From Bradyrhizobium japonicum USDA 6 (GTDB lineage Bacteria; Pseudomonadota; Alphaproteobacteria; Rhizobiales; Xanthobacteraceae), in contig NC_017249.1 of NCBI RefSeq assembly GCF_000284375.1, forward strand, positions 3,698,001-3,762,000: a stretch of 64,000 nt of DNA, in the 5' to 3' direction. The notes under the pieces were generated by a model that was given only the letters and a program-made list of their open reading frames with translations, was not told the DNA's origin and made no database searches. Numbering within the stretch: position 1 is the first letter of the stretch; every line of letters begins with the position of its first letter. This document shows, piece by piece, positions 21,257 to 34,751 of this stretch. The position numbers and the translations under genes were made by a program.

Positions 21257-21985
21257 CTAGCTGGCCTTGGCGAGATCGTCGTCCTCGGGCGAATTCAGAT
21301 AGACGCCCGATACGGTGTCGACCCAGCACAGATGGTCATGCACCTTCTTGACACCGTCGACGTTCTCCGCCGCGACGATGGCAGCCTGACGCGCGCGTTC
21401 CTCAGTGATGACACCGCTGAGATGAACGATGCCGTCCCGGACGATGACGTTCAGTCCGAACGGGCACCAGTCGTTTTTCTCCATGGTGTCGATGATGCGG
21501 CCGCGAATGTGGTCGTCGTCGGCCGTCGGGTCCGGTACCTCGCGGGCGAGCCCCGCCACCGCCTGCAACAGATTCGCGCGGGAGACGATGCCGACGACCT
21601 TGTCGCCCCGCACCACCGGCAGCCGCTTTACGTTGTTCCGTTCCATGAGATCGACGATCTCCGCGAGCGCCGTATCCTCGGTGATGGTCACAACCGAGGT
21701 GGTCATCACCTCCGAGACCTTGCGGCCATGCTCGTGGACGAAATCGCTGGCGGATTCGCCGGGGCCGAGGATGAACCGCAGCCAACGGCCTCGCTTGCGG
21801 CCGGTGCCGATTTCGCTGCGGCGGACGAAATCCCCCTCGGAGACCACGCCGACCAGCTTGCCGGCATCGTCGACCACGGTTAGGCCGCTGACGTGCCGCT
21901 TCAGCATGATGTTGGCCGCTTCGACGATGCTGGTGTGGGGGGTAACCGAGATCACCGAGCGGGTCATGATCTGGTGGGCGCGCAT
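21257..21985 (-). CDS. CBS domain protein with C-terminal BON domain
   Basis: About 242 residues: two CBS repeats (beginning near MTRSVISVTPHTSI and MTTSVVTITEDTAL) separated by a basic linker (GRKRGRWLRF), then a BON domain (GLNVIVRDGIVHLSGVITEE). CBS pairs bind adenine nucleotides and BON domains often contact membranes, so it may sense energy state. The ATG at 21985 with GCGGAG upstream is preferred to a GTG at 22006. It lies downstream of a perfect FNR/FixK palindrome at 22052. It is convergent with the RidA gene. Confidence 0.88.
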   Translation of the reverse strand: MRAHQIMTRSVISVTPHTSIVEAANIMLKRHVSGLTVVDDAGKLVGVVSEGDFVRRSEIGTGRKRGRWLRFILGPGESASDFVHEHGRKVSEVMTTSVVTITEDTALAEIVDLMERNNVKRLPVVRGDKVVGIVSRANLLQAVAGLAREVPDPTADDDHIRGRIIDTMEKNDWCPFGLNVIVRDGIVHLSGVITEERARQAAIVAAENVDGVKKVHDHLCWVDTVSGVYLNSPEDDDLAKAS

Positions 21986-22051
21986 GGGGAAGCTCCGCAA
22001 GTTCACACGAATATCGATGTGTGGAGCTTAGGTCGCCGGCAGGAAGCTGAT

Positions 22052-22065
22052 TTGACTTAAGTCAA
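22052..22065. promoter_or_regulatory. FNR/FixK box (perfect palindrome)
   Basis: TTGAC-TTAA-GTCAA, 67 bases upstream of the CBS-BON start. It fits the TTGAY-N4-RTCAA consensus of FNR/FixK regulators. Confidence 0.75.
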
Positions 22066-22077
22066 GCTGGTCCGCAC

Positions 22078-23052
22078 CTAATCCTCGGGTTCTGCATTCG
22101 GGGCGAGGTCGGAGGAGCGGAACGGCTTGGCTTTGTCCAGTTTCCGGTAAGCGTTCGAGGCGGTCCCCAACAGCTTCTTTTGCCGCTTCCGGTTGAGGAA
22201 GCGAATGCCCGCCTCGGGGACGGCCTCGTTCAGGGACGCTGCCAGGGTTTGCCCTCGCGCATCGTCGTTCAATTGCCCGAGGGACCTCTGCGCCTTGCGC
22301 AATTGCTTGAGGATCGACTTCTGTTTTGTCAGCGATTCGTCTGCAAACAAATCCTCTAGCGACTCGATCGAATAGGTCAGCCGCTTGTTGAGGAGCCGCA
22401 GCTTGTGCCGTTTTTCGACGTCGAGCTTGCGGAGTTTCCGCGCCTTCCTGAGCAGCGTCGTTTCCCATTCCGTGAGCTGCGCCGTCGCGTGGTCGGCAAG
22501 CGGGCAGCGGCGCAATCGGATTGCCTCCTTGCTGCGCCGGGTCGACCAAGGACCGCTCTCGATCCAGGCCGAGGTCTGCTCGACAAGACGGCGATACCGC
22601 GCCGATTGCAGCGCGCGCGCCAGCAGGCGGTGGCTCTCGGCGCGCTTCTCGTCCCAATGCTGAAGCTCGGCGATCACGTCAAGCTCGCCTCCGCTCTCGG
22701 CGATAACCCGCTCGATCGCCACGTCGAGGTCGCGCACCATGCCGAGCTGGCTGTTCAGCCATTTCAGTTCGGCCCAGACATTCGGCCGCAGGGAATCGTC
22801 GACCATGGGCGAGAAGAAGCGGATGGCGGTGCGCAGATGCGTCAGTGCGATCCGGATCTGATGCAGCGCCTCCGGATCGCCGTGGCAGGTGCCATTGTGC
22901 TGGGCGAGGACGGCATCGAGGTGACGGCGGGCGATGATCCGGAACGCGGTGTCGCAGGCCATACCGGGACTGAGGCGGCCGGGCAGAACATTGCGCCGCG
23001 CCGCAGGCTTGGCACGAGCGGTCGCCATCGAACTCGTGGTGGGTCGCGCCAT
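22078..23052 (-). CDS. CHAD domain protein
   Basis: About 324 residues, mostly alpha-helical and highly charged. The N-terminal part carries LHQIRIALTHLRTAIRFF and LNSQLGMVRDLDVAIERV, the histidine/arginine-rich hallmarks of CHAD domains, which bind polyphosphate. The second half repeats a similar helical pattern (KLRLLNKRLTYSIESLEDLF). The ATG at 23052 is chosen; a TTG at 23067 would add five residues. It lies 25 bases after the APH-AAA gene. Polyphosphate binding is family knowledge and was not seen directly. Confidence 0.88.
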   Translation of the reverse strand: MARPTTSSMATARAKPAARRNVLPGRLSPGMACDTAFRIIARRHLDAVLAQHNGTCHGDPEALHQIRIALTHLRTAIRFFSPMVDDSLRPNVWAELKWLNSQLGMVRDLDVAIERVIAESGGELDVIAELQHWDEKRAESHRLLARALQSARYRRLVEQTSAWIESGPWSTRRSKEAIRLRRCPLADHATAQLTEWETTLLRKARKLRKLDVEKRHKLRLLNKRLTYSIESLEDLFADESLTKQKSILKQLRKAQRSLGQLNDDARGQTLAASLNEAVPEAGIRFLNRKRQKKLLGTASNAYRKLDKAKPFRSSDLAPNAEPED

Positions 23053-23077
23053 CCTAGCCCGCGCCAATCAGATTGCC

Positions 23078-24625
23078 TTATTTGCCCTCAGCGATTACGT
23101 CCCGGCAGTTCTGGAGCGTCTGCGCTTGTGTCCCGGATGCATCGATGGTCGCCCAACCGACATAGCCGATATTATAGTGCTCTTGCTGCGCGGCAACCTC
23201 TTGCGTGGCGTCGGACGCGTCGCCCCGGCGGCCGCCGATTCGCGCCTGGCGGGTGGCGAGGTCGGCGACGAGGAATAGTCCATTGAGCGGTACGCCGCAC
23301 TCGCGTGCCAGGGCGGCCATCTCGTCTCGCTCGGACTCGCGCGCAAAGACGGCGTCGACGATTGCCGAATGGCCTTGCGCCAGAACCTGCCGGGCGCGCT
23401 GCATCAGCACCTCGTAGACGCGCGCCGTCACGTCGGGCCGGTACGTGGACTGCGGTAGCCGCTCGGTGTGTCCGACCTGAAACATCTGCTTGCGAATGAC
23501 GTCGCTGCGCAGCACGACGGCGCCGGGCTGTGGCGCCACGGCGGGCGCCAGCGCGCGGGCGAGCACGGATTTGCCGGTGCCCGACAGTCCGCCGACCGCG
23601 ATCAGGCGAGGGGCGGGGGGATGAATCAAAGCCTGGGCGAGCTCGAAATAGCGGCGCGCCTCGTCGAGAGTGCCGGGGCCGTCGGCATCAGGCCGCCTCA
23701 GCCGCGCCAGCGCCACCTGTGCACGGATCGCGGCGCGAATGGACATGAACAGTGGCAGCGCAGCCAGGGCGTCCAGCGTTTCGTCGGGCGCCGTCATCAG
23801 ATACTGGTTCAGGACGGCATTGGCCGTGGCCGGCTGGTCATGGCGCAGCAGGTCCATCAGCGTGAACGCAAGATCGTAGAGCACGTCCACAGTCGCCATC
23901 TGCGTGTCGAATTCGAGAGCGTCGAACAGGACAGGCTGCCGGTCGATCAGCACGATATTGGCAAGATGCAAGTCGCCGTGACAGCGGCGCACAAAGCCGT
24001 GGCGCGCGCGTTCCTCCAGTGTAGCGCGGACGCGCAGGAATGCCTGATGTGAGGACTCGCAGAGTTGCTCGATCTGGGCTGCTTCGAAATGATCGCCATT
24101 GCGCAGCCCGGTGCTGTTGCCTTCGATCAGCGCGGAAATGGAGGCAACCCATGCGGCGCCGTCCGCGACGGGCGCTCTCGCATGCAATGCTGCGATCGCA
24201 TCCGCGATGGCCGGGCCGAGCTCTGCATCCAGCGGACCGCCTTTTGCCACATGGTCCAGCGTCCGGTTTTCGTCGAAGCGGGACATGTCGACTGCATACT
24301 CGACCGGCCGGCCGCGACCGTCGATCTTGATCGATCCATCCGGCTCCTCCGTGATCGCCACGACGCGGTGATAGATTTGCGGCGCGAACGGCTGGTTGAT
24401 CCTGATCTCCTCTTCGCAGGCCGCCTCGCGCTTTTCGAGCGTCGAATAGTCGAGGAATGGAAACTTGACAGCCCGCTTGATCTTCAATGCGCGTGCCCCG
24501 TCCAGGAGCACCGAGGCTGCGTGCGTGTCGATCCGCTTCACGCCGGGATGCGCGCTCAGTGCTTGGAAGACCCGTTCCTGGGTTGCAGAATCGTCCGTCA
24601 TCTCTGCCAGCAAATCCAGATGCAT
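23078..24625 (-). CDS. Bifunctional aminoglycoside phosphotransferase-like / AAA ATP-binding protein
   Basis: A 515-residue two-domain protein. The N-terminal two thirds carry a kinase-like fold with the Brenner motif HGDLHLANIV and DALEF (HxDxxxxN and the metal-binding aspartate). The C-terminal third begins with the P-loop GLSGTGKSVLARALA and continues as a nucleotide kinase-like domain. The physiological substrate is unknown. Start ATG 24625; ATG 24601 is possible. It is divergent from the universal stress gene across two FNR boxes and leads a minus-strand series with CHAD and CBS-BON. Confidence 0.85.
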   Translation of the reverse strand: MHLDLLAEMTDDSATQERVFQALSAHPGVKRIDTHAASVLLDGARALKIKRAVKFPFLDYSTLEKREAACEEEIRINQPFAPQIYHRVVAITEEPDGSIKIDGRGRPVEYAVDMSRFDENRTLDHVAKGGPLDAELGPAIADAIAALHARAPVADGAAWVASISALIEGNSTGLRNGDHFEAAQIEQLCESSHQAFLRVRATLEERARHGFVRRCHGDLHLANIVLIDRQPVLFDALEFDTQMATVDVLYDLAFTLMDLLRHDQPATANAVLNQYLMTAPDETLDALAALPLFMSIRAAIRAQVALARLRRPDADGPGTLDEARRYFELAQALIHPPAPRLIAVGGLSGTGKSVLARALAPAVAPQPGAVVLRSDVIRKQMFQVGHTERLPQSTYRPDVTARVYEVLMQRARQVLAQGHSAIVDAVFARESERDEMAALARECGVPLNGLFLVADLATRQARIGGRRGDASDATQEVAAQQEHYNIGYVGWATIDASGTQAQTLQNCRDVIAEGK

Positions 24626-24674
24626 CGGCGGTGAGGCAGCAGGCTAACTCCTGGAGGCGGATCGAGGCCAGTCC

Positions 24675-24688
24675 TTGACATCGGTCAA
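24675..24688. promoter_or_regulatory. FNR/FixK box
   Basis: TTGAC-ATCG-GTCAA, 50 bases upstream of the APH-AAA start and 97 bases upstream of the universal stress gene. Confidence 0.7.
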
Positions 24689-24723
24689 AGCCGGTCGTCG
24701 GCTGGCTGCGCGGTGTTCCCGCC

Positions 24724-24737
24724 TTGAGGAAGATCAA
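24724..24737. promoter_or_regulatory. FNR/FixK box
   Basis: TTGAG-GAAG-ATCAA, 47 bases upstream of the universal stress gene. It has four matching arm bases on each side. Confidence 0.6.
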
Positions 24738-24784
24738 GCTTCCCGGCGAAAGGTGGCTTATCCTAGCCGGTAAGGAGAATCCCG

Positions 24785-25624
24785 ATGCCCATCAAGGATG
24801 TCTTTCTGCCGCTTGTCGGCCAGCCGCGCGGGCCGGCCCTCGCTGCGATCGGGACATGCGTGGCTGTCGCCGCCGACCTCGGCGCCAGGATCACCGCGCT
24901 CGCGCTCGAGGAAGACGATTTCGTGCGGCCGAGGGTCACCATCCCTGGTGATCTCGATTCCGCGGAGGCGAGCGGTTCGCGTGAGGTAAGCAACGTGCAG
25001 CAACTCCTCAACGCCTTCACCAATGCAGCCTCCAGCGCCAACATTCGCGCCCAAAGCCGATCGGGTAAGGTGCCGGCGGACCAGATCGCGTCGATCCTGG
25101 CCGAGCATGCGCGCTTCAGCGATCTGACGCTGGTTCCCGCGAGGCCGCATGACAGTCGAACGGAGCGCATCATCGAAACGCTCCTGTTCGAATCCGGCCG
25201 GCCGCTGCTGCTCTGCCCGGAACAGCATGTGGACAAGCTGCGACCGGAGTTCGAGAACGTCATGATCGCCTGGGATCACTCCGCCCGTGCCGCGCGGGCG
25301 GTCGGCGACGCGTTGCCCATTCTTCAGGCTGCGGCATCCGTCCGGGTGGTCACGGTGGCGGACGACCCGACCGACGCGATTGTTCAATCCGGAACCGCGC
25401 TCGTCGACCACCTGAGGGAACACGGTGTCTACGCCTCGTTCGAAACGGCGATGGGCCGCGGCAGCTCGATCGGCAAGGTGCTCGGAAGCTGGGCGAATTC
25501 CCATGCCATGGATGCGATCGTGATGGGCGCCTACCATCATTCACGGCTGAACGAGATCGTCTGGGGTGGTGTGACAAAGACCGTCATTGGCCAGCCGCCG
25601 TGCTGGGTTATGATCTCGCACTAG
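24785..25624 (+). CDS. Universal stress protein (tandem UspA)
   Basis: A 279-residue protein with two Usp folds in tandem. The second half ends with MDAIVMGAYHHSRLNEIVWGGVTKTVI, the nucleotide-binding loop pattern of the family. Usp proteins accumulate during growth arrest and oxygen limitation. TAAGGAG precedes the ATG, and two FNR boxes lie upstream. The acyl-CoA synthetase/acetyltransferase gene follows after 68 bases and may be co-transcribed. Confidence 0.92.
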   Translation: MPIKDVFLPLVGQPRGPALAAIGTCVAVAADLGARITALALEEDDFVRPRVTIPGDLDSAEASGSREVSNVQQLLNAFTNAASSANIRAQSRSGKVPADQIASILAEHARFSDLTLVPARPHDSRTERIIETLLFESGRPLLLCPEQHVDKLRPEFENVMIAWDHSARAARAVGDALPILQAAASVRVVTVADDPTDAIVQSGTALVDHLREHGVYASFETAMGRGSSIGKVLGSWANSHAMDAIVMGAYHHSRLNEIVWGGVTKTVIGQPPCWVMISH

Positions 25625-25692
25625 GCGCATCGCCGGTTTATCGGCCGATCGTCAACCATCGGAACCGCCACCGACCGGGCGCATATGCTTTC

Positions 25693-28386
25693 ATGTCAAC
25701 CTATCGCTTGAAGAATCTGCTGTCGCCGCGTTCGGTTGCGCTCGTCGGCGCGAGCGCCCGCCCGGTCTCGGTCGGCCGCGCCGTTCTCGAGAACATTCGC
25801 AAAGCCGAGTTCAAGGGGCGGTTCGGCCTCGTCAATCCGCGCCATGCCGAGATCGGCGGCATCGCTGCGGTGGGCAGTCTGGACAGGCTGGACTTCGTGC
25901 CCGAGCTCGTGGTCATCACCGCGCCGGCGCGAGAGGTCCCCGGCATCATTGATCAGGCCGGACGTCGGGGCTCGGCCGGCGCGCTGATCGTCTCGGCGGG
26001 CCTCGGTCACGGACCGGGATCCCTGCACGAGGCCGCGATCGCTGCGGCGCGCAAATACGGCATGCGGCTGATTGGGCCGAACTGCCTCGGCATCATGATG
26101 CCCGGCGTCAGCCTCAATGCCAGCTTTGCCGCTCACATGCCGGGGGCGGGCAACCTCGCGCTGATCTCGCAATCCGGCGCGATCGCGGCCGGAATGGTGG
26201 ATTGGGCTGCGCAGCGCGGCGTCGGGTTCTCCGGCATTGTCACGATCGGCGATCAGATCGACGTCGATATTGCCGATCTGCTCGATCATTTCGCGATGGA
26301 CCACAAGACCCGCGCGATACTGCTTTATATCGAGGCCATCAAGGACGCGCGCAAGTTCATGTCGGCGGCGAGGGCCGCGGCGCGCGTGAAGCCGGTCGTC
26401 GTGGTCAAGTCCGGTCGCATGGTGCAGGGTGCCAAAGCGGCGGCAACCCATACGGGCGCGCTCGCCGGCGCCGACGCCGTCTATGATGCCGCGTTCCGCC
26501 GTGCGGGCGTCCTGCGCGTCTCCGATCTGCGCGAGCTGTTCGATTGCGCCGAGACGCTCGGTCGCGTTGAGCCGCCGGCGGGACAGCGTCTCGCCATCCT
26601 CACCAATGGCGGGGGCATCGGCGTCCTGGCCGTGGATCGGTTGGCGGACCTTGGTGGAATCCCGGCGTCCATCTCGGCTGAGACGCGCAAGAGCCTCGAT
26701 GCAGTTCTGCCGCCGACCTGGTCCGGTGCAAATCCCGTCGACATCGTCGGTGATGCCGATGCATCGCGCTACGCGGCGGCGCTGGAGGTGCTGCTCGCAG
26801 ATCCTGATAATGATGCCGTCCTCGTCCTCAACGTGCAGACTGCGATCGCCCCGGCGGCCGACATCGCCGCGACCGTGACCGAGCTCGTCGGCAAATATCG
26901 CGAGCAGCAGCGTCGATGGGCGAAGCCCGTGCTGGCGGCTTGGGTCGGAGCCGATCAGAACATCATTCAGGCGCTCTCCGGCGCGGGCATTCCGAATTAT
27001 CCGACCGAAGATGATGCGGTGCGCGGCTTCATGCATCTCGTGCGGCATCGCGAGGTCGTGGAGGAGCTGAGCCAGGTTCCTCCCGCGATGCCCGACACGT
27101 TCGTGCCTGACGCCCGGGCTGCCAGGCAGATCGTCGCCGCTGCGATCGCGGACGGTCGCAAATGGCTCGATCCCGTCGAGATCAAGCACCTGCTCGGGGC
27201 CTATGACATCGCGATGGTACCGACCCGTGCTGCTGATGATGTCGAGCAGGCCGTCACCTACGCCAGCGAGATGTTCGCGCAGGGCGTCACAGTCGTGCTG
27301 AAGATCATGTCGCGCGACATCGTCCACAAGTCGGACGTCGGCGGCGTCGTCCTCAATCTGACCACGCCGGAGGCCGTGCGCGCGGCTGCCACCGACATTC
27401 TCGCGCGGGCGAGGAAGCTCCGTCCCGAAGCCCGCATCGAGGGCGTCATCGTGCAGGCGATGGTCGTCAAGGCGAAGGCGCGCGAGCTGATCCTGGGTCT
27501 TGCCGACGATCCCATCTTTGGCACCGTCGTCGTCTTCGGCCGGGGCGGGACGGCGGTCGAGATCATCAACGACAAGGCACTGGCGCTTCCGCCGCTCGAT
27601 CTGCAACTCGCCCGGGACCTGATCGGCCGCACGCGCGTATCACGGCTGCTGAAGGCCTATCGTGACGTACCCGCGGTCGAGCAGGACGCCGTCGCGATGG
27701 TGCTGGTCAAGCTCGCCCAGATGGCCGCTGACATTCCCGAGATCCGGGAGTTCGACATCAACCCACTGCTTGCGGACGAGACCGGCGTGACCGCGGTCGA
27801 CGCCCGCGTCGCGGTGGGGCCGCCGCAGCGCAAATTCGCCGGCTCCGGCCCGGCCAACTTCGCCGTCCGGGCCTATCCGTCGCAGTGGGAGCGCCGCCTG
27901 GCGCTCAAGGACGACTGGCGGATCTTCGTACGGCCCCTGCGTCCGGAGGACGAGCCGACCATCCACGAATTCCTGCGTCACGTCACGGCGCACGACCTCC
28001 GCCTGCGCTTCTTCGCGCCGATGAAGGAGTTCACCCACGAATTCATCGCACGCCTGACCCAGCTCGACTATGCGCGCGCAATGGCCTTCATCGCATTCGA
28101 CGAAGCCACCAACGAGATGGTCGGCGTCGTCCGGCTCCATTCGGACTCGGTCTATGAGAGCGGCGAATATGCGATCCTGCTGCGCTCCGACCTCAAGGGC
28201 AGGGGGCTCGGATGGGCGTTGATGCAGTTGATCATCGACTATGCGAGGTCGGAGGGGCTGAAGACCATCTCGGGTGATGTTCTCAGGGAGAACACCACAA
28301 TGCTTGAGATGTGCCGCCAGCTCGGCTTCGACGTGAAGCCAGATTCAACGGAGCCCGACCTCTGTGACGTCAGGCTCAAGCTCTGA
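25693..28386 (+). CDS. Pat-like bifunctional acyl-CoA synthetase (NDP-forming) / GNAT acetyltransferase
   Basis: A protein of 897 residues, close to the length of Salmonella Pat. The order is a CoA-binding Rossmann domain (from SPRSVALVGASARP), a ligase-CoA domain, an ATP-grasp domain (from about residue 490) and a C-terminal GNAT domain from about residue 735 (RPLRPEDEPTIHEFLRH; acetyl-CoA loop LKGRGLGWAL). His253 in THTGALAGADAVYD aligns with the phospho-histidine of ADP-forming acetyl-CoA synthetases. Likely roles are protein lysine acetylation, acyl-CoA hydrolysis with ATP formation, or both. The ATG at 25693 is where homology starts, although the frame is open from 25600. Confidence 0.88.
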   Translation: MSTYRLKNLLSPRSVALVGASARPVSVGRAVLENIRKAEFKGRFGLVNPRHAEIGGIAAVGSLDRLDFVPELVVITAPAREVPGIIDQAGRRGSAGALIVSAGLGHGPGSLHEAAIAAARKYGMRLIGPNCLGIMMPGVSLNASFAAHMPGAGNLALISQSGAIAAGMVDWAAQRGVGFSGIVTIGDQIDVDIADLLDHFAMDHKTRAILLYIEAIKDARKFMSAARAAARVKPVVVVKSGRMVQGAKAAATHTGALAGADAVYDAAFRRAGVLRVSDLRELFDCAETLGRVEPPAGQRLAILTNGGGIGVLAVDRLADLGGIPASISAETRKSLDAVLPPTWSGANPVDIVGDADASRYAAALEVLLADPDNDAVLVLNVQTAIAPAADIAATVTELVGKYREQQRRWAKPVLAAWVGADQNIIQALSGAGIPNYPTEDDAVRGFMHLVRHREVVEELSQVPPAMPDTFVPDARAARQIVAAAIADGRKWLDPVEIKHLLGAYDIAMVPTRAADDVEQAVTYASEMFAQGVTVVLKIMSRDIVHKSDVGGVVLNLTTPEAVRAAATDILARARKLRPEARIEGVIVQAMVVKAKARELILGLADDPIFGTVVVFGRGGTAVEIINDKALALPPLDLQLARDLIGRTRVSRLLKAYRDVPAVEQDAVAMVLVKLAQMAADIPEIREFDINPLLADETGVTAVDARVAVGPPQRKFAGSGPANFAVRAYPSQWERRLALKDDWRIFVRPLRPEDEPTIHEFLRHVTAHDLRLRFFAPMKEFTHEFIARLTQLDYARAMAFIAFDEATNEMVGVVRLHSDSVYESGEYAILLRSDLKGRGLGWALMQLIIDYARSEGLKTISGDVLRENTTMLEMCRQLGFDVKPDSTEPDLCDVRLKL

Positions 28387-28395
28387 TCGTTCCGA

Positions 28396-28878
28396 TCACG
28401 AGTGCGCTTCGCGCGATGCGCCGGCTTCCGTGGCCGCTTTCCGCAGACTCTTGACGATGATCGCAATCAGCGGCACCAGCACCGGCACAATCGTGGTGAG
28501 CGGATGATGGACCGCGCCTGACACCTGAGCCTGGAGCGCCCGCGCCTCGAGCTGCAAGGCTTCGATGGATGCGCCGTGAATTTCATTGGCGAGCTCGATG
28601 TCGCGGCCGGATGGAGGACGGCCGGCAACGATGAAGAGAACCGCCGCGATGGCGAAATTCACGGCGCCGAGGATGGCAGCCGCCGCAATTGCGCTCCAGA
28701 TCTGGACCAGCGCGAAATAGGCCGACAGCTCCAGCATCAGGAGCCCGAATGCCGCGATCAACGCCGCGAAGGCCCGCAGGCCGAGACCGATCAGTAGATG
28801 GCGCAGCCTGATGTCCGCGATGATCCTGTCGGTGCGCCACAGCACGCGCAGATGTTTGACGACATTTTCCATGTTCAT
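28396..28878 (-). CDS. Phage-holin-family-like membrane protein
   Basis: A 160-residue protein with two adjacent hydrophobic segments (about residues 25-85), a soluble stretch and a further C-terminal hydrophobic segment (TTIVPVLVPLIAIIVKSL). It resembles the putative holin-superfamily (Phage_holin_3_6) proteins that accompany DUF883 genes; there is no prophage here. GAGGAG precedes the ATG. It is directly downstream of the DUF883 gene and convergent with the Pat-like gene ten bases away. Confidence 0.7.
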   Translation of the reverse strand: MNMENVVKHLRVLWRTDRIIADIRLRHLLIGLGLRAFAALIAAFGLLMLELSAYFALVQIWSAIAAAAILGAVNFAIAAVLFIVAGRPPSGRDIELANEIHGASIEALQLEARALQAQVSGAVHHPLTTIVPVLVPLIAIIVKSLRKAATEAGASREAHS

Positions 28879-29154
28879 CTAGTGTCTCCTCAGCATGAAG
28901 CCGACGACCACGCCGAGCGCGAAAGCCGAGGCCAGCGATGTGACCGGGCGTTCCGCAATGAGGCCCTGAAGCTGCTCCTGCTCGTCGCTGACGGTTTCTC
29001 CGAGCTCGGCAAGCGCGGCCTTGATCTGATCGGCCAGAACCTCGGCCCGGTCTCTCGAGCTGTCGAACATCTCTTCGCCTGCGGTGCTCAGCAGACGCGT
29101 GACGTCAACCTTCAGCGCTCGCAGCTCTTCGCTCATCCTGTCGCTGTTGAACAT
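28879..29154 (-). CDS. DUF883 / YqjD-ElaB-like membrane-anchored protein
   Basis: A 91-residue protein. A long amphipathic, coiled-coil-prone helix (SEELRALKVDVTRLLSTAGE onward) is followed by a C-terminal transmembrane helix containing SAFALGVVVGFMLRRH. This is the architecture of YqjD/ElaB proteins, which tether ribosomes to the inner membrane in stationary phase. It lies one base upstream of the holin-like gene and 59 bases from an FNR box. Confidence 0.82.
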   Translation of the reverse strand: MFNSDRMSEELRALKVDVTRLLSTAGEEMFDSSRDRAEVLADQIKAALAELGETVSDEQEQLQGLIAERPVTSLASAFALGVVVGFMLRRH

Positions 29155-29212
29155 GGATTTGAGAACTCCCTTGAAATGGAAGCGAGCCTAAGGCCCGGCG
29201 GCGCGACCGCGC

Positions 29213-29226
29213 TTGATTTGCGTCAA
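29213..29226. promoter_or_regulatory. FNR/FixK box
   Basis: TTGAT-TTGC-GTCAA in the divergent region, 59 bases upstream of the DUF883 start. Confidence 0.72.
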
Positions 29227-29248
29227 GGGCCGGCGCGTGGCCCTGGTG

Positions 29249-29262
29249 TTGAGACAGGTCAA
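29249..29262. promoter_or_regulatory. FNR/FixK box
   Basis: TTGAG-ACAG-GTCAA, 70 bases upstream of the MlaE-like gene. With the 29213 box this gives one site for each divergent promoter. Confidence 0.65.
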
Positions 29263-29331
29263 CCCGGCCGCCACATGCTGGCCTAGAAGTGGCGGCTGAA
29301 TGGGGGCCAATTGTCCCGATGAGGTGGAAGC

Positions 29332-30465
29332 GTGAACGAACCGCTGTTGCTGGCAACGCCCTCCGGCGATGCGCTGAAATTGCGCCCGGAAGGGCCGTGG
29401 ACGGCAGCCAACGTGTCGGCGCTCGAAACGCTGTCCCGATCGGTCGGAGCGGATGTCGATCGATCCAGCGCCGTGACGCTGGACATGTCCGGCGTCAGTG
29501 CGCTTGACACGCTCGGCGCCTGGGTCCTGGAGAAGTTGTCGCGCAGGGCCGCATCATCCGGTAGATCGGCCGAATTCGTCGGCGTTGCCGATCATTTCAG
29601 CGGCCTGATGGATGAGGTGCGTCAGGTCAACCGCCACCCCCCGGCGGTTGCGGCCGCGCCAAACCCGATTCTGCTGAGGCTCGGCGATCTCGGCAAGTCC
29701 ACGGTTGGCGCGCGCGAAGACGTCACGATCTTTCTTCAAATGCTGGGTGCATTGTTCATCGCCGTAATCGGCGTGCTGCGCCGGCCGCGATCGCTGCGGC
29801 TGACCTCGCTGGTCTACCAGCTCTACCGGATTGGCTGGCAGGCGATTCCCATCGTCGTGCTCATCACCTTCCTGATCGGCGCCATCATTGCGCAACAAGG
29901 GTTCTTCCATTTCCGCAGGTTCGGTGCGGAGTCCTACACGGTCGACATGGTCGGCATCCTGGTGCTCCGCGAGCTCGGCGTGCTGATCGTCGCCATCATG
30001 GTCGCGGGACGTTCGGGCAGCGCCTACACCGCCGAGCTCGGCTCGATGAAGATGCGCGAGGAGATCGACGCGCTCTCGACCATGGGACTCGATCCCGTCC
30101 ATGTCCTGATACTGCCGCGAGTAGCAGCCCTCGTCATCGCGCTGCCGATCCTCGCGTTCATTGGGGCGGTTGCGGCGCTCTATGGCGGAGGACTGGTCGC
30201 GCAATTCTACGGCGGCATGGCACCGGCGATCTACATCGCGCGGCTGCATGAGGCCATCTCCGTCACCCATTTCGAGGTCGGCATCCTGAAGGCGCCCTTC
30301 ATGGCGCTGGTGATCGGGATCGTCGCCTGCAGCGAAGGATTGCGCGTGAAGGGCAGCGCGGAATCGCTCGGGCGGCAGACGACCACGTCGGTGGTGAAGT
30401 CGATCTTCCTGGTGATCGTGCTCGATGGCCTGTTCGCGATCTTCTTCGCTTCGATCGGAATGTGA
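29332..30465 (+). CDS. MlaE family lipid ABC permease with N-terminal STAS domain
   Basis: A 377-residue protein. Residues 1 to about 100 resemble a STAS domain (VTLDMSGVSALDTLGAWVLEKL), the module supplied by the separate protein MlaB in E. coli. The remainder is a MlaE permease with about five transmembrane segments and MAGRSGSAYTAELGSMKMREEIDAL, the conserved MlaE coupling region. The start is GTG at 29332 with GAGGTGGAAG upstream. It is first of three overlapping or near-touching genes forming an MCE phospholipid transporter. Confidence 0.9.
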   Translation: MNEPLLLATPSGDALKLRPEGPWTAANVSALETLSRSVGADVDRSSAVTLDMSGVSALDTLGAWVLEKLSRRAASSGRSAEFVGVADHFSGLMDEVRQVNRHPPAVAAAPNPILLRLGDLGKSTVGAREDVTIFLQMLGALFIAVIGVLRRPRSLRLTSLVYQLYRIGWQAIPIVVLITFLIGAIIAQQGFFHFRRFGAESYTVDMVGILVLRELGVLIVAIMVAGRSGSAYTAELGSMKMREEIDALSTMGLDPVHVLILPRVAALVIALPILAFIGAVAALYGGGLVAQFYGGMAPAIYIARLHEAISVTHFEVGILKAPFMALVIGIVACSEGLRVKGSAESLGRQTTTSVVKSIFLVIVLDGLFAIFFASIGM

Positions 30466-31235
30466 CGATGGACGAATCGCAAGAGGTATTGGCGATCCGC
30501 GTTCGCGACCTCGTGGTCGGCTTCGGCCGCCAGACCGTGCTCGACTATCTGTCGCTCGACGTCCGCCGGGGCGAGATCCTCGGGCTCGTCGGAGCGTCCG
30601 GCGGCGGCAAGTCGGTCTTGATGCGCACCATCATCGGCCTCATCCCGCGCCAGGGCGGGAGCATCGAAGTCATGGGACGGCCGATCGGTGGCCGCACCGA
30701 AGGCGCGGCAACGACGTGGGGCATTCTGTTCCAGCAAGGTGCGCTGTTCTCCTCACTGACGGTTCGTCAAAACGTGCAGTTTCCGCTGCGCGAAAATCTC
30801 GTGCTGTCGCAGGAGCTGATGGACGAGATCGCGATCGCCAAGCTCGAGATGGTCGGGTTGCGGGCGCAGGACGCCGACAAATATCCGTCGGAGCTCTCGG
30901 GCGGCATGACCAAGCGCGTGGCGCTGGCCCGCGCACTCGCGCTCGATCCGCCGATCCTGTTCCTGGACGAGCCGACCTCCGGTCTCGACCCGATCGCGGC
31001 GGGCGATTTTGACGCGCTGATCGGGACGCTGCAGAAGACCCTCGGCCTCACCGTGTTCATGGTCACCCATGATCTTGCGAGCCTCACCACGGTCTGCGAC
31101 CGCGTCGCCGCGCTCGCCGACGGCAAGATCGTGGCGATCGGCCCGATGCGCGAATTGCTGCAATCCGAGCATCCCTGGGTGCGCGCCTATTTCCACGGCA
31201 AGCGCTCGCAGATGCTGCAACACGAGATGAGATGA
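30462..31235 (+). CDS. MlaF family lipid ABC transporter ATPase
   Basis: A 257-residue ATPase. Walker A is GASGGGKSVLMRTI, the signature LSGGMTKRVALARALA, Walker B ILFLDEPTSGLDPI, and the H-loop VTHDL. It starts at GTG 30462 in a GTGA overlap with the permease stop; the ATG at 30468 is an alternative. It energises the MCE transporter encoded by its neighbours. Confidence 0.92.
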   Translation: MTMDESQEVLAIRVRDLVVGFGRQTVLDYLSLDVRRGEILGLVGASGGGKSVLMRTIIGLIPRQGGSIEVMGRPIGGRTEGAATTWGILFQQGALFSSLTVRQNVQFPLRENLVLSQELMDEIAIAKLEMVGLRAQDADKYPSELSGGMTKRVALARALALDPPILFLDEPTSGLDPIAAGDFDALIGTLQKTLGLTVFMVTHDLASLTTVCDRVAALADGKIVAIGPMRELLQSEHPWVRAYFHGKRSQMLQHEMR

Positions 31236-31238
31236 GAC

Positions 31239-32342
31239 ATGGAAACCCGCGCTCCCTACGTGCTGATCGGCAGCTTCGTGCTGGCCGCGATCCTCGCGGT
31301 ATTCGGCTTCGTCTATTGGCTGAACAACACGGGCGGCATCGGGCCGCGCGCGAACTATCATGTGCAATTCCAGGGTCCGGTGCCGGGTCTGCTGGTTGGT
31401 GCCGGCGTGCTGTTCAACGGCATCCGGGTCGGCGAGGTGACGCAGATCGGCCTCGCGCCGGATAATCCGCGCTTCGTCAATGCGACGATCTCGGTTGCCT
31501 CGACGACACCCGTGCGTAACGACACCAAGGTCGGGCTCGATTTCCAGGGGCTGACCGGCGTGCCGGTGGTGACGCTGGAGGGCGGCGTGATCGTTGCCAA
31601 GGCCGGCGAGCCCGTGACCCTGATCGCCGAGGCCGGTGCAGGCCAGAGCATGACGCAGGCTGCGCGCGATGCGCTGCGACGGGTCGATACCGTGCTGGAG
31701 GACAATTCCGGTCCACTGAAGGACACCATTGCGAACCTCAAGACATTCTCCGACGGGCTCGCGCGCAACACCGGCAAAATCGACGGTATTCTGGCAGGCC
31801 TGGAAAAGATGACCGGCGGCGGGACGCCGGCCCAGAAGATCACCTACGACCTGCGCACGCCGCAGAATCTTGGGCCGGCCGGCAAGACGCTTACGGCGTC
31901 ACTGGCGATTCCGGAGCCGACCGCGGTTGCGATGCTCCAGACTCAACGGATGCTGTTTGCGCCCAGCGGGGACAATCCGGGTTTTGCGGAATTCCTCTGG
32001 GCCGACAGCATCCCGAAGCTGGTCCAGGCGCGGCTGATCGACAGTTTTGAGAATTACGACATCGCCCACGCGCCCCTGCGCACGGCTGACCTCGGACAGG
32101 CGGACTACCAGCTTCTGATCGACATCAGGCGTTTCCGGATCGCCACGGAGGGCGAGGCCCGGGTCGAGATCGGACTGTCGGCACACATCGTCGACAAGAA
32201 CGGCAAGGTGATCGCGTCGCGCCTCGTCGAGACCAGCGAGAAGCTTGACAAGGTCGAGCCGGCCGCAGCGGTCGCAGCGTTCGACGCAGCCTTCGCTCGC
32301 ATTGCAAAGGAGCTGATCGGCTGGACAGTTCAGGCAGTCTGA
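31239..32342 (+). CDS. MlaD-family MCE protein fused to ABC auxiliary (PqiC/DUF330-like) domain
   Basis: A 367-residue protein. One N-terminal transmembrane helix (VLIGSFVLAAILAVFGFVYW) precedes a single MCE domain (about residues 40-120, PGLLVGAGVLFNGIRVGEV and TGVPVVTLEGG). After a helical stretch (about 135-195), residues from about 205 resemble the ABC-type transport auxiliary lipoprotein component (IPKLVQARLIDSFENY, YQLLIDIRRFRI). The second domain is normally a separate outer-membrane lipoprotein, so here both sit on one chain. It lies three bases after the ATPase gene. Confidence 0.85.
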   Translation: METRAPYVLIGSFVLAAILAVFGFVYWLNNTGGIGPRANYHVQFQGPVPGLLVGAGVLFNGIRVGEVTQIGLAPDNPRFVNATISVASTTPVRNDTKVGLDFQGLTGVPVVTLEGGVIVAKAGEPVTLIAEAGAGQSMTQAARDALRRVDTVLEDNSGPLKDTIANLKTFSDGLARNTGKIDGILAGLEKMTGGGTPAQKITYDLRTPQNLGPAGKTLTASLAIPEPTAVAMLQTQRMLFAPSGDNPGFAEFLWADSIPKLVQARLIDSFENYDIAHAPLRTADLGQADYQLLIDIRRFRIATEGEARVEIGLSAHIVDKNGKVIASRLVETSEKLDKVEPAAAVAAFDAAFARIAKELIGWTVQAV

Positions 32343-32348
32343 CGGCCT

Positions 32349-32666
32349 CTATTCCAGTGTCTTCAGGTAGGACAGGAGATCGTGGATCTGGTCTGGACTG
32401 AGCTCGAAGGCCGGCATGTTGGTGTGGCCGGTCGAAATACCTTCGGCCAGCGCTTCCTCGAGGGCCTCGATCGGATAGCGGTTGTGCAGCGTGCGCAACG
32501 GCGGCGCTATCCTGAGCGGGCTTTTCGAGACCCGATCGATCGCATGGCAGCGCGCACAACTGGCCCGTGCAAATGCCTTGCCGCGCTGTTCTGCGGTCGG
32601 AGCCGCCAGCACAGGCGTGATCAGAAACAGCCCAATCAGGCCGTGGCGCAACGCAGTTTGCAGCAT
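32349..32666 (-). CDS. Small secreted c-type cytochrome
   Basis: A 105-residue protein with a signal peptide (MLQTALRHGLIGLFLITPVLA). It has one haem-binding CARCH motif and a C-terminal methionine ligand candidate in TNMPAF, followed by DLLSYLKTLE, as in class I cytochromes. It should act as a periplasmic electron carrier. The ATG at 32666 starts at the signal peptide; the frame is open further upstream. It is divergent from the FNR-type regulator over an FNR box and convergent with the MCE gene. Confidence 0.9.
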   Translation of the reverse strand: MLQTALRHGLIGLFLITPVLAAPTAEQRGKAFARASCARCHAIDRVSKSPLRIAPPLRTLHNRYPIEALEEALAEGISTGHTNMPAFELSPDQIHDLLSYLKTLE

Positions 32667-32722
32667 GGAAGGTGATCCCGTCGAACTCTGGAAGCAGAAT
32701 ATGGCGGGGACGTCTGTCAAAA

Positions 32723-32736
32723 TTGATCTGGGTCAA
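32723..32736. promoter_or_regulatory. FNR/FixK box
   Basis: TTGAT-CTGG-GTCAA, 57 bases upstream of the cytochrome gene and 82 bases upstream of the FNR-type regulator, so it could serve both, including autoregulation. Confidence 0.72.
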
Positions 32737-32817
32737 CTGCCTTTGGCGCAGTGCAGTAAAATGCAGCCGTGCGGTGGACTCGGCCTGACGCGGAGCAGCC
32801 GGCGCTTGGAGCGGTGG

Positions 32818-33531
32818 ATGAAGGCTTCCGTGGTGACGATCGAGCCGAACGGGCATTTCTGTAGCGATTGTGCGGTCCGCGACTTCGCGGTGTGCTCGTC
32901 GCTGGACCCGGCCGAGCTCAGGGAATTCGAGCATCTGGGGCGCCGCGTCCATTTTGACGGGGGCGAGACCGTGTTCTCCGAGGAGGACATCGCGACCTCG
33001 TTCTACAACGTCCTCGAAGGCGTCATGCGGCTCTACAAGCTGCTGCCCGACGGAAGGCGGCAGATCGTGGGATTTGCTTTGCCCGGCGATTTCCTGGGGA
33101 TGAATATTTCCGGCCGGCACAATTTTTCGGCCGATGCGATCAGCGGCGTCACCGTGTGCCAGTTCGCGAAGGCCCCTTTTGGCCGTTTCATCGAAGACCG
33201 GCCGCACCTGCTCAGGCGGATCAACGAGCTGGCTATTCGCGAGTTGAGCCAGGCGCGCGACCACATGGTCTTGCTCGGCCGCCGCTCGGCGGACGAGAAA
33301 GTCGCGACGTTTCTGCTCACCTGGCGCGAGCGGCTATTTTCGCTGAAGGGGGCGTCGGACACGGTTCAGCTGCCGATGAGTCGTCAGGACATCGCCGACT
33401 ACCTCGGCCTGACCATTGAAACCGTCAGTCGCACCTTCACCAAGCTGGAGCGACATGGGGTGATCGAGATCGTTCAAGGCGGCATCAGTCTGCTCGATCC
33501 GGCGAAGGTCGAGGCCTTGGCTGCGGCCTGA
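32818..33531 (+). CDS. FNR/FixK-type regulator with Fe-S cysteines (FnrN/AadR-like)
   Basis: A 237-residue Crp/Fnr protein. Cys15, Cys18 and Cys26 (FCSDCAVRDFAVC) plus Cys114 match the four [4Fe-4S] ligands of oxygen-sensing FNR/FnrN proteins. The cNMP-fold beta-barrel follows, then a helix-turn-helix with ETVSRTFTKL. The E-x-x-S-R recognition pattern is the one that reads TTGAT-N4-ATCAA. The ATG at 32818 with GGAG upstream is chosen although the frame is open from 32482. It is the likely regulator of the boxes in this island. Confidence 0.9.
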   Translation: MKASVVTIEPNGHFCSDCAVRDFAVCSSLDPAELREFEHLGRRVHFDGGETVFSEEDIATSFYNVLEGVMRLYKLLPDGRRQIVGFALPGDFLGMNISGRHNFSADAISGVTVCQFAKAPFGRFIEDRPHLLRRINELAIRELSQARDHMVLLGRRSADEKVATFLLTWRERLFSLKGASDTVQLPMSRQDIADYLGLTIETVSRTFTKLERHGVIEIVQGGISLLDPAKVEALAAA

Positions 33532-33548
33532 TTCGGCGATCGCCAATT

Positions 33549-33562
33549 TTGATCCCAATCAA
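33549..33562. promoter_or_regulatory. FNR/FixK box (consensus)
   Basis: TTGAT-CCCA-ATCAA, an exact match to the E. coli FNR consensus arms, 52 bases upstream of the small membrane protein gene at 33615. Confidence 0.72.
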
Positions 33563-33614
33563 TGACGGCGGTCGCGCGCCGCCAATAATGCCCCAAATAG
33601 CAGGGGAGGGCATC

Positions 33615-33740
33615 ATGCCGACTGACGCACTGCTGGTGACGATCGCTGTCGTAGTCGTTTTTGTCACATTCGCCGGGGCTTTGGCATGGGCAGACCGGCA
33701 AACCAGCGCAGGTCGGCCTGATTCGGACGCTAGGCACTGA
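33615..33740 (+). CDS. Small single-span membrane protein
   Basis: A 41-residue product consisting of a short N-terminus, one hydrophobic helix (LLVTIAVVVVFVTFAGALAW) and a polar tail (ADRQTSAGRPDSDARH). GGGGAGGG lies eight bases before the ATG and a consensus FNR box lies upstream, which makes translation and low-oxygen induction plausible. The function is unknown. It is too short for many gene callers. Confidence 0.6.
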   Translation: MPTDALLVTIAVVVVFVTFAGALAWADRQTSAGRPDSDARH

Positions 33741-34022: not shown

Positions 34023-34751
34023 GTGCCTCAGGACAAGACCGGCGACCCCCGACAAGCTGCGGGCAACAAATTATCGGTCCTGCGCAAGCACCCGATCTTC
34101 GCGGATCTGGAGCCGGAGGCGCTCGATCAGCTCTGCCGCTACGCCAAGCACACCACGGTGAAGCGCGGCGCGACGATCGCCGCCAAGGGCGATCCCGGCA
34201 ACAACCTGTTCGCGGTGATCACGGGAACAGTGAAGATTTCCTCTTCGTCGCCGGATGGAAGGAACGCTATTCTCAATCTGATCGGTCCTGGAGAAATCTT
34301 TGGCGAGATCGCGGTTCTCGATGGCGCGCCGCGCTCGGCCGACGCGACCGCCAACACCAATTGCGAACTCTACATCATCGACCGTCGCGACTTCCTGCCA
34401 TTCGTGAAGAGCCAGCCGGCGCTGGCGATGAAGTTCATCGAGCTGCTTTGCGCGCGCCTGCGCTGGACCAGCCAGCAGGTCGAGCAAGTGATCCTGCAAA
34501 ATCTGCCGGGCCGGCTTGCGAGCGCGCTGCTCGGTCTCACCGAAGAGCGCAAGTTAGACTCCGGCAGCGGCACGCTCGCCATCACGCAGCAGGAGATCAG
34601 CGAGATGGTGGGGATGACGCGCGAGAGCATCAACAAGCAATTGCGCGCCTGGGCCGGCCGCAACTGGGTTCGTCTCGAGCACGGCGCCATCGTCGTGCTG
34701 GATACCGATGCGTTGCGCGACCTCGCCGAGAGCGGCCTCGACGGCGAGTGA
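34023..34751 (+). CDS. Crp/Fnr family regulator (no Fe-S cysteines)
   Basis: A 242-residue protein with a cNMP-binding barrel (GDPGNNLFAVITGTVKI, GEIFGEIAVLDGAPRSADATA) and a Crp-type winged helix (ITQQEISEMVGMTRESINKQLRAW). It has no N-terminal cysteine cluster, and the recognition helix reads RESINK rather than ETVSR, so its DNA target should differ from the 32818 regulator. The phosphate-binding-cassette-like segment suggests a cyclic nucleotide or related ligand. The start is GTG at 34023; the 282 bases upstream hold no recognisable gene. Confidence 0.88.
   Translation: MPQDKTGDPRQAAGNKLSVLRKHPIFADLEPEALDQLCRYAKHTTVKRGATIAAKGDPGNNLFAVITGTVKISSSSPDGRNAILNLIGPGEIFGEIAVLDGAPRSADATANTNCELYIIDRRDFLPFVKSQPALAMKFIELLCARLRWTSQQVEQVILQNLPGRLASALLGLTEERKLDSGSGTLAITQQEISEMVGMTRESINKQLRAWAGRNWVRLEHGAIVVLDTDALRDLAESGLDGE

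Follow-up and report, generated by a model that had tools for sequence, protein, structure and literature searches.

Why should seven FixK/FNR-type boxes (TTGA-N6-TCAA) stand together before the genes of one island in the Bradyrhizobium japonicum USDA 6 genome, and which regulator works them? The island lies within a 64-kb stretch (the window; positions 3,698,001-3,762,000 of a single 9.2-Mb contig). The evidence below makes it highly probable that we are dealing with the fixK1 island of Bradyrhizobium, in which targets of the FixLJ-FixK2 low-oxygen regulon are concentrated. The boxes are probably worked by FixLJ-FixK2, with FixK1, the regulator encoded inside the island, as a second tier.

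The box cluster and the fixK1 locus

Exact matches to TTGA-N6-TCAA begin at positions 22052, 24675, 24724, 29213, 29249, 32723 and 33549 and nowhere else in the 64 kb. Shuffled versions of the window hold 0.35 on average (largest value 2), and none of 100 shuffles reaches 7. All seven boxes are intergenic and are distributed over five gaps, bearing out the first-pass annotation, which had placed seven such palindromes here, exclusively in promoter positions. The FixK2 box consensus is TTGA/C-N6-T/GCAA (PMC9104804); in this relaxed form (TTGM-N6-KCAA) it has nine matches in the window, against 3.24 expected, and the two additional ones (23183 and 59141) fall inside open reading frames (ORFs). 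Throughout the genome, the exact pattern occurs 159 times in 9.2 Mb, as compared to 32 times for the reversed pattern. When all 159 positions, collected through four sub-patterns, were examined for clustering, the island emerged as the densest cluster of the genome, with seven boxes in 11.5 kb; no other separate cluster exceeds four. Placing the 159 sites at random 20,000 times never gave seven in 11.5 kb; the maximum, six, was obtained five times. The first-pass annotation had proposed such a scan and had regarded an equal box density elsewhere as a refutation; no equal density was found genome-wide.

The boxes are also conserved. Related loci were taken as the best 80 of 493 relatives of the island's four-cysteine regulator; their record titles read Bradyrhizobium in 78 cases, Bradyrhizobiaceae in one and Frankia in one. 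These loci (1.59 Mb) contain 443 boxes versus 3 matches to the reversed pattern, mostly in the gaps that carry boxes in the window: 137 between the 91-residue protein gene and mlaE (69 loci), 128 between the APH-AAA and universal stress protein (USP) genes (65 loci), 70 between cycS and fixK1 (70 loci) and 65 between fixK1 and a small ORF (65 loci). In alignments of these gaps (69, 25, 69 and 70 sequences, in the same order), half-site identity to the window is 98.2%, 99.8%, 100% and 98.9%, compared with 72-91% in the N6 centres and 61-73% in the remainder of the gaps. The genes are retained along with the boxes: MlaF in 77 of the 80 loci, MlaE and MlaD in 76 each, the PatACS fusion in 75, APH-AAA in 71, the cytochrome in 70, the holin-like and 91-residue proteins in 69 each, the small ORF in 67 and USP in 66. 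The flanks of these loci mostly end short of CBS-BON and CHAD. The second CRP/FNR-type regulator gave a count of 80/80 that includes weak cross-matches to FixK1 and was set aside. The record titled Frankia sp. RB7 (L020, JAUEPE010000031.1) carries the Bradyrhizobium island at about 90% identity, so that the assembly has probably been misnamed or contaminated.

Gene order and annotation identify the island with the bll6060-blr6074 region of Bradyrhizobium diazoefficiens, its fixK1 locus. There, bll6060 encodes a CRP/FNR protein, bll6061 is fixK1, and bll6062 to bll6065 specify CycS, an MCE protein, an ATPase and MlaE; these are accompanied by bsr6066, blr6067 (holin family), bll6068 (GNAT), bll6069 (USP), blr6071 (kinase) and blr6074 (CBS) (PMC6515984, PMC9104804, PMC6710368, PMC4070659, PMC2908626). 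Because the gene order fits this series, we identify the four-cysteine regulator as FixK1 and the small cytochrome as CycS. The two loci share gene order, gene kinds, box type and box places, and the window's 29249 box agrees in all 14 letters with the one published for bsr6066 (PMC9104804). A locus titled B. diazoefficiens SZCCT0138 (L045) carries the island as well. The gene bll3466, first considered as the counterpart of the island's regulator, was dropped, the bll6060-blr6074 order in PMC6515984 fitting instead. The island can thus not be presented as novel, since the locus has already been published. The system is mostly known, and what is new lies in details: a 41-residue ORF with its own box and two doubtful published box assignments.

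In B. diazoefficiens, bll6060, bll6063, bll6064, bll6065, bll6068, bll6069 and blr6074 are raised at 0.5% O2 at both transcript and protein level; bll6069 and blr6074 are the only ones of the seven marked as direct FixK2 targets in the table, where the phaC2 gene is also marked (PMC6515984). Deletion of fixK2 lowers expression of bsr6066 92.6-fold, blr6067 20.9-fold, phaC2 27.9-fold and blr6074 90.9-fold (PMC9104804). With these induction and deletion data, the joint low-oxygen control proposed by the first-pass annotation becomes very likely.

Regulators and rival explanations

FixLJ-FixK2 is the likely driver because FixL, FixJ and a FixK2-like protein are all encoded in this genome. FixL (952 bits, cut-off 850) and FixJ (344 bits, cut-off 255; both NCBIfam models) adjoin each other at 7.2 Mb. 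Beside them are another response regulator and, with a single cysteine in its open frame, a FixK-like protein; ccoN (715 bits, cut-off 583) is close to this group, and a box stands upstream of the FixK-like gene, in front of the gene for the additional response regulator. A cluster at 3.49 Mb was considered as the fixLJ-fixK2 site and dropped, ccoN being at 7.2 Mb. That cluster (3,487,334-3,507,696; L126/L127) is the second densest box region of the genome, with six boxes in 20.4 kb, and includes genes for a FixK-like regulator that lacks cysteines, for a response regulator resembling FixJ, for an acetate kinase-like protein and for an ion channel.

As stated in the first-pass annotation, FixK1 has cysteines C15, C18, C26 and C114, and all four are kept in 81 of 81 sequences. 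They are those of an Fe-S oxygen-sensing FNR protein, and an Fe-S cluster is predicted here. The FNR-type recognition helix ExxSR, which reads TTGA, is ETVSR in the window's FixK1 and invariant across the sequences compared. The FnrL equivalog model (NCBIfam NF045989) gave 179.8 bits on FixK1 against a cut-off of 300, and this assignment was abandoned. The second CRP/FNR-type regulator adjoins FixK1 in a conserved gene order; its recognition helix differs from that of FixK1, and no exact TTGA-N6-TCAA box precedes its gene (34023-34751) in the window scan.

We envisage that, as oxygen falls, FixL would activate FixJ, which would turn on fixK2, 3.5 Mb from the island; FixK2 would then bind the boxes and activate the adjacent genes, fixK1 among them. 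FixK1 most likely acts at a subset of these boxes when oxygen drops further, given its four FNR-type Fe-S cysteines and the same kind of DNA-reading helix, so that a second-tier role is plausible. The products (MCE lipid transporter, cytochrome, acetyltransferase, USP, CBS-BON, CHAD, kinase and small membrane proteins) would have the presumed common purpose of adjusting the envelope and the metabolism of the cell to scarce oxygen.

If FixK1 were instead the main activator, the island would be a self-contained oxygen switch largely independent of FixK2. The presence of fixK1 inside the island with a box in its own promoter, the invariance of its cysteines, and the finding of regulator, cytochrome and transporter together in eight of the 14 other-genus loci that were opened all speak for this, whereas the regulator occurs without the transporter in the other six, and bsr6066, blr6067 and blr6074 fall 21- to 93-fold in the fixK2 deletion (PMC9104804). 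Part of the latter effect could be indirect, since fixK1 itself needs FixK2 in B. diazoefficiens. On balance we consider this explanation improbable, and the notion of the island's FNR-type protein as sole driver finds no support in a genome with FixL, FixJ and a FixK2-like gene at 7.2 Mb. The boxes might also be mainly NnrR/DNR sites responding to nitric oxide during denitrification, the sequence recognised being nearly identical for FNR, FixK and DNR (PMC2908626); this is very improbable, as the published induction occurs at low oxygen (PMC6515984) and depends on FixK2 (PMC9104804). Finally, some of the 159 genome sites must be due to chance, judging from the 32 reversed matches, but a functionless pile-up of seven is refuted by the random placements and by conservation in the 80 loci, and its probability is close to nil.

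Several observations weigh against the FixLJ-FixK2 assignment or its details. Sites for FNR, FixK and DNR are indistinguishable by sequence (PMC2908626), so FixK2 as driver in this strain is something we infer. The FixK2-like protein scores 232.5 bits, below the cut-off of 300 of the NCBIfam Caulobacter FixK model. Five induced genes (bll6060, bll6063, bll6064, bll6065 and bll6068) are unmarked as direct FixK2 targets, and fixK1, cycS, bsr6066 and blr6067 are absent from that same induction table (PMC6515984). The comparison with USDA 110 is one of annotation and gene order, and the USDA 110 genes blr6070 (Zn-alcohol dehydrogenase) and phaC2 are lacking in the window's island. Seven of the 80 loci have no box in the stretch scanned for the small ORF, whose frame is altered or shortened in L018, L046 and L053. 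Among the loci compared at CBS-BON, no box is present within 400 bp in L158, L163 or L165. Two boxes are retained in L148, which has CHAD and lacks a phaC2 match in its 3.7 kb; this contradicts a simple rule by which a gene and its box come and go together.

Assignment of boxes to genes and the 41-residue ORF

The features of the island are collected in Table 1. With boxes centred at the usual activating position, -41.5, the eight genes they precede would have leaders of 13 to 47 bases, a reasonable length. The boxes in the first-pass list of boxes and genes stand; the list omitted the regulator gene itself, which also lies behind the 32723 box. Two of its family labels, "DUF883" and "holin-like", are weak, with scores below the Pfam cut-offs (DUF883_C, 12.3 bits and E 0.14 versus 27; Phage_holin_3_6, 22.7 versus 28.4), and a "ribosome-tethering" protein has no family match above cut-off to speak for it. 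From their spacing, the USP and PatACS genes probably form one operon.

Table 1. Genes and FixK/FNR boxes of the island (window coordinates; box distances run from box centre to gene start)
Feature	Position	Strand	Evidence
CBS-BON protein gene (counterpart of blr6074)	21257..21985	-	Pfam CBS 116 bits, BON 64.5 bits
Box of CBS-BON, 73.5 bp	22052..22065	.	near box kept in relatives
CHAD-domain protein gene	22078..23067	-	Pfam CHAD 144 bits
APH-like/AAA kinase-like gene (probably blr6071 counterpart, putative kinase)	23078..24625	-	Pfam AAA_33 95 bits, APH 34 bits
Box of APH-AAA gene, 56.5 bp	24675..24688	.	motif scan, conservation
Box of USP gene, 54.5 bp	24724..24737	.	motif scan, conservation
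USP gene (counterpart of bll6069)	24785..25624	+	Pfam Usp
Acyl-CoA synthetase/GNAT acetyltransferase fusion gene, PatACS (counterpart of bll6068)	25693..28386	+	Pfam ATP-grasp_5, Succ_CoA_lig, CoA_binding_2, Acetyltransf
Holin-like membrane protein gene (counterpart of blr6067)	28396..28878	-	Phage_holin_3_6 22.7 bits, cut-off 28.4
91-residue protein gene, DUF883-like at best (counterpart of bsr6066)	28879..29154	-	DUF883_C 12.3 bits
Box of 91-residue protein gene, 65.5 bp	29213..29226	.	motif scan, conservation
Box of mlaE, 76.5 bp	29249..29262	.	motif scan, conservation
MlaE-type permease gene, N-terminal STAS domain (counterpart of bll6065)	29332..30465	+	Pfam MlaE 243.5 bits; TIGR00056 over cut-off
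MlaF-type ABC ATPase gene (counterpart of bll6064)	30462..31235	+	Pfam ABC_tran 107 bits
MCE/MlaD protein gene fused to ABC_trans_aux (counterpart of bll6063)	31239..32342	+	Pfam MlaD 49.8, ABC_trans_aux 52.6 bits
Small cytochrome c gene cycS (counterpart of bll6062)	32349..32666	-	Pfam Cytochrom_C 40.8 bits; CxxCH in translation
Box between cycS (63.5 bp) and fixK1 (88.5 bp)	32723..32736	.	motif scan, conservation
fixK1, FNR-type regulator gene with four cysteines	32818..33531	+	Pfam HTH_Crp_2, cNMP_binding
Box of small ORF, 59.5 bp	33549..33562	.	motif scan, conservation
41-residue single-span membrane protein ORF	33615..33740	+	translation, conservation
Second CRP/FNR-type regulator gene (counterpart of bll6060)	34023..34751	+	Pfam cNMP_binding 88.7 bits

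Loci that have lost a gene help to decide which box serves which promoter. The 32723 box occupies the cycS/fixK1 gap, and fixK1 and cycS reportedly share one FixK2 box (Mesa et al. 2008). Where cycS is absent (8 of 76 judgeable loci) the box is kept in all eight, which would follow from its being used by fixK1 as well; it is present in 68/68 loci with cycS. The 91-residue gene is absent in six loci (L019, L020, L024, L078, L082 and L091), all of which keep the mlaE-side box and four of which have lost the other one. L020 was flagged holin-positive although its 232-bp gap is too short for the holin gene; L095 was flagged as lacking the 91-residue gene, yet its gap of 975 has room and the gene is matched there at 43%. 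When both small genes are present (67 loci), two boxes are found in 62, one in three and three in two. At the other end of the island, phaC2 is close and divergent to CBS-BON in 10 of 30 loci, each of the ten having two boxes, with the proviso that CBS-BON matches below about 77% may be paralogs. In the window, unlike B. diazoefficiens, CHAD abuts CBS-BON and no phaC2 match lies beside it; here and in L141, which has the same arrangement, the near box alone remains. The CBS-BON protein has 25 matches in one genome (G010) and 1 to 10 in the 39 others searched.

The box published for bsr6066 at -105 has the letters of the window's 29249 box, and that published for blr6074 at -143 has those of the far, phaC2-side box (PMC9104804). 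Since these letters match neighbour-side boxes, the two published sites are probably those of the divergent neighbours, and the own boxes of bsr6066 and blr6074 are probably the nearer ones (about 65 and 73 bp from the starts in the window).

The small ORF begins with an ATG at 33615, just downstream from a GGAGGG, and specifies 41 residues with one hydrophobic span. Differences among 63 sequences fall at third codon positions in 58.6% of cases and the median dN/dS is 0.13 (289 usable of 300 sampled pairs); the copies were picked by motif (65 of the 80 loci), which favours conserved ones. Judged from this substitution pattern, the ORF is a membrane protein gene under purifying selection, with its own box. 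A protein search returned 60 homologs, the named organisms being Bradyrhizobium and the named functions "hypothetical" except for one "FtsN"; weak matches occur in another genus (L213, 53%). Pfam gave no match below E 0.27. In the main texts of a start-site map (PMC4842269) and a small-ORF study (PMC5082802), fixK1, FixK2, FixK and the locus tags are matched only in the reference lists.

Tentatively, and with more doubt than belief, all this might be combined into a two-tier oxygen module: FixK2 would open the boxes under micro-oxia, and near anoxia boxes would pass to the Fe-S protein FixK1, whose gene lies within the island and is itself served by one of them. The 41-residue protein would belong to the module, perhaps acting on the transporter or the respiratory chain. 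Each gene would have a box of its own, and the module would grow or shrink by gain or loss of a gene and its box as a unit. Regardless of this scheme, the window is now tied to the published oxygen cascade, with a comparative map of the cascade's densest target cluster in this genome. This makes several points testable: the signal sensed by FixK1 and its contribution beyond that of FixK2, the function of the 41-residue protein, the reason for the conservation of an MCE lipid transporter among low-oxygen targets, and a possible reassignment of the published bsr6066 (-105) and blr6074 (-143) boxes to the nearer ones.

Related arrangements elsewhere

The first-pass annotation had likened the island to a dormancy or persistence regulon. 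In the DosR dormancy regulon of mycobacteria, low oxygen induces universal stress and CBS-type proteins; regulator class and box are both different from those of the island, where both regulators are of the CRP/FNR type rather than NarL/LuxR-type response regulators as in DosR. The likeness is one of analogy, no evidence for dormancy or persistence having been found in the sequence.

A further parallel is the aadR region of Rhodopseudomonas palustris (RPA4234-RPA4239), in which consecutive tags specify the FNR-type regulator AadR (RPA4234), a cytochrome c (RPA4235) and an ABC transporter (RPA4236-4238), with RPA4235-4239 depending on FixK (PMC2908626). The island's arrangement fits that of this region. 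A regulatory role in anaerobic aromatic degradation is described for AadR but not for FixK1.

Matches to the regulator at 1e-40 were found in 41 of 149 genomes of the family, and 18 loci were opened, including the 14 from other genera. Seven of the eight other-genus loci that combine MlaEFD, cytochrome and regulator also have PatACS and APH-AAA; the remaining six lack the full MlaEFD and cytochrome set. In a genome of the same genus (G176, locus L208), nine boxes occur within 20 kb near a FixK1-like regulator (55%), a cytochrome and CBS-BON, without the transporter genes.

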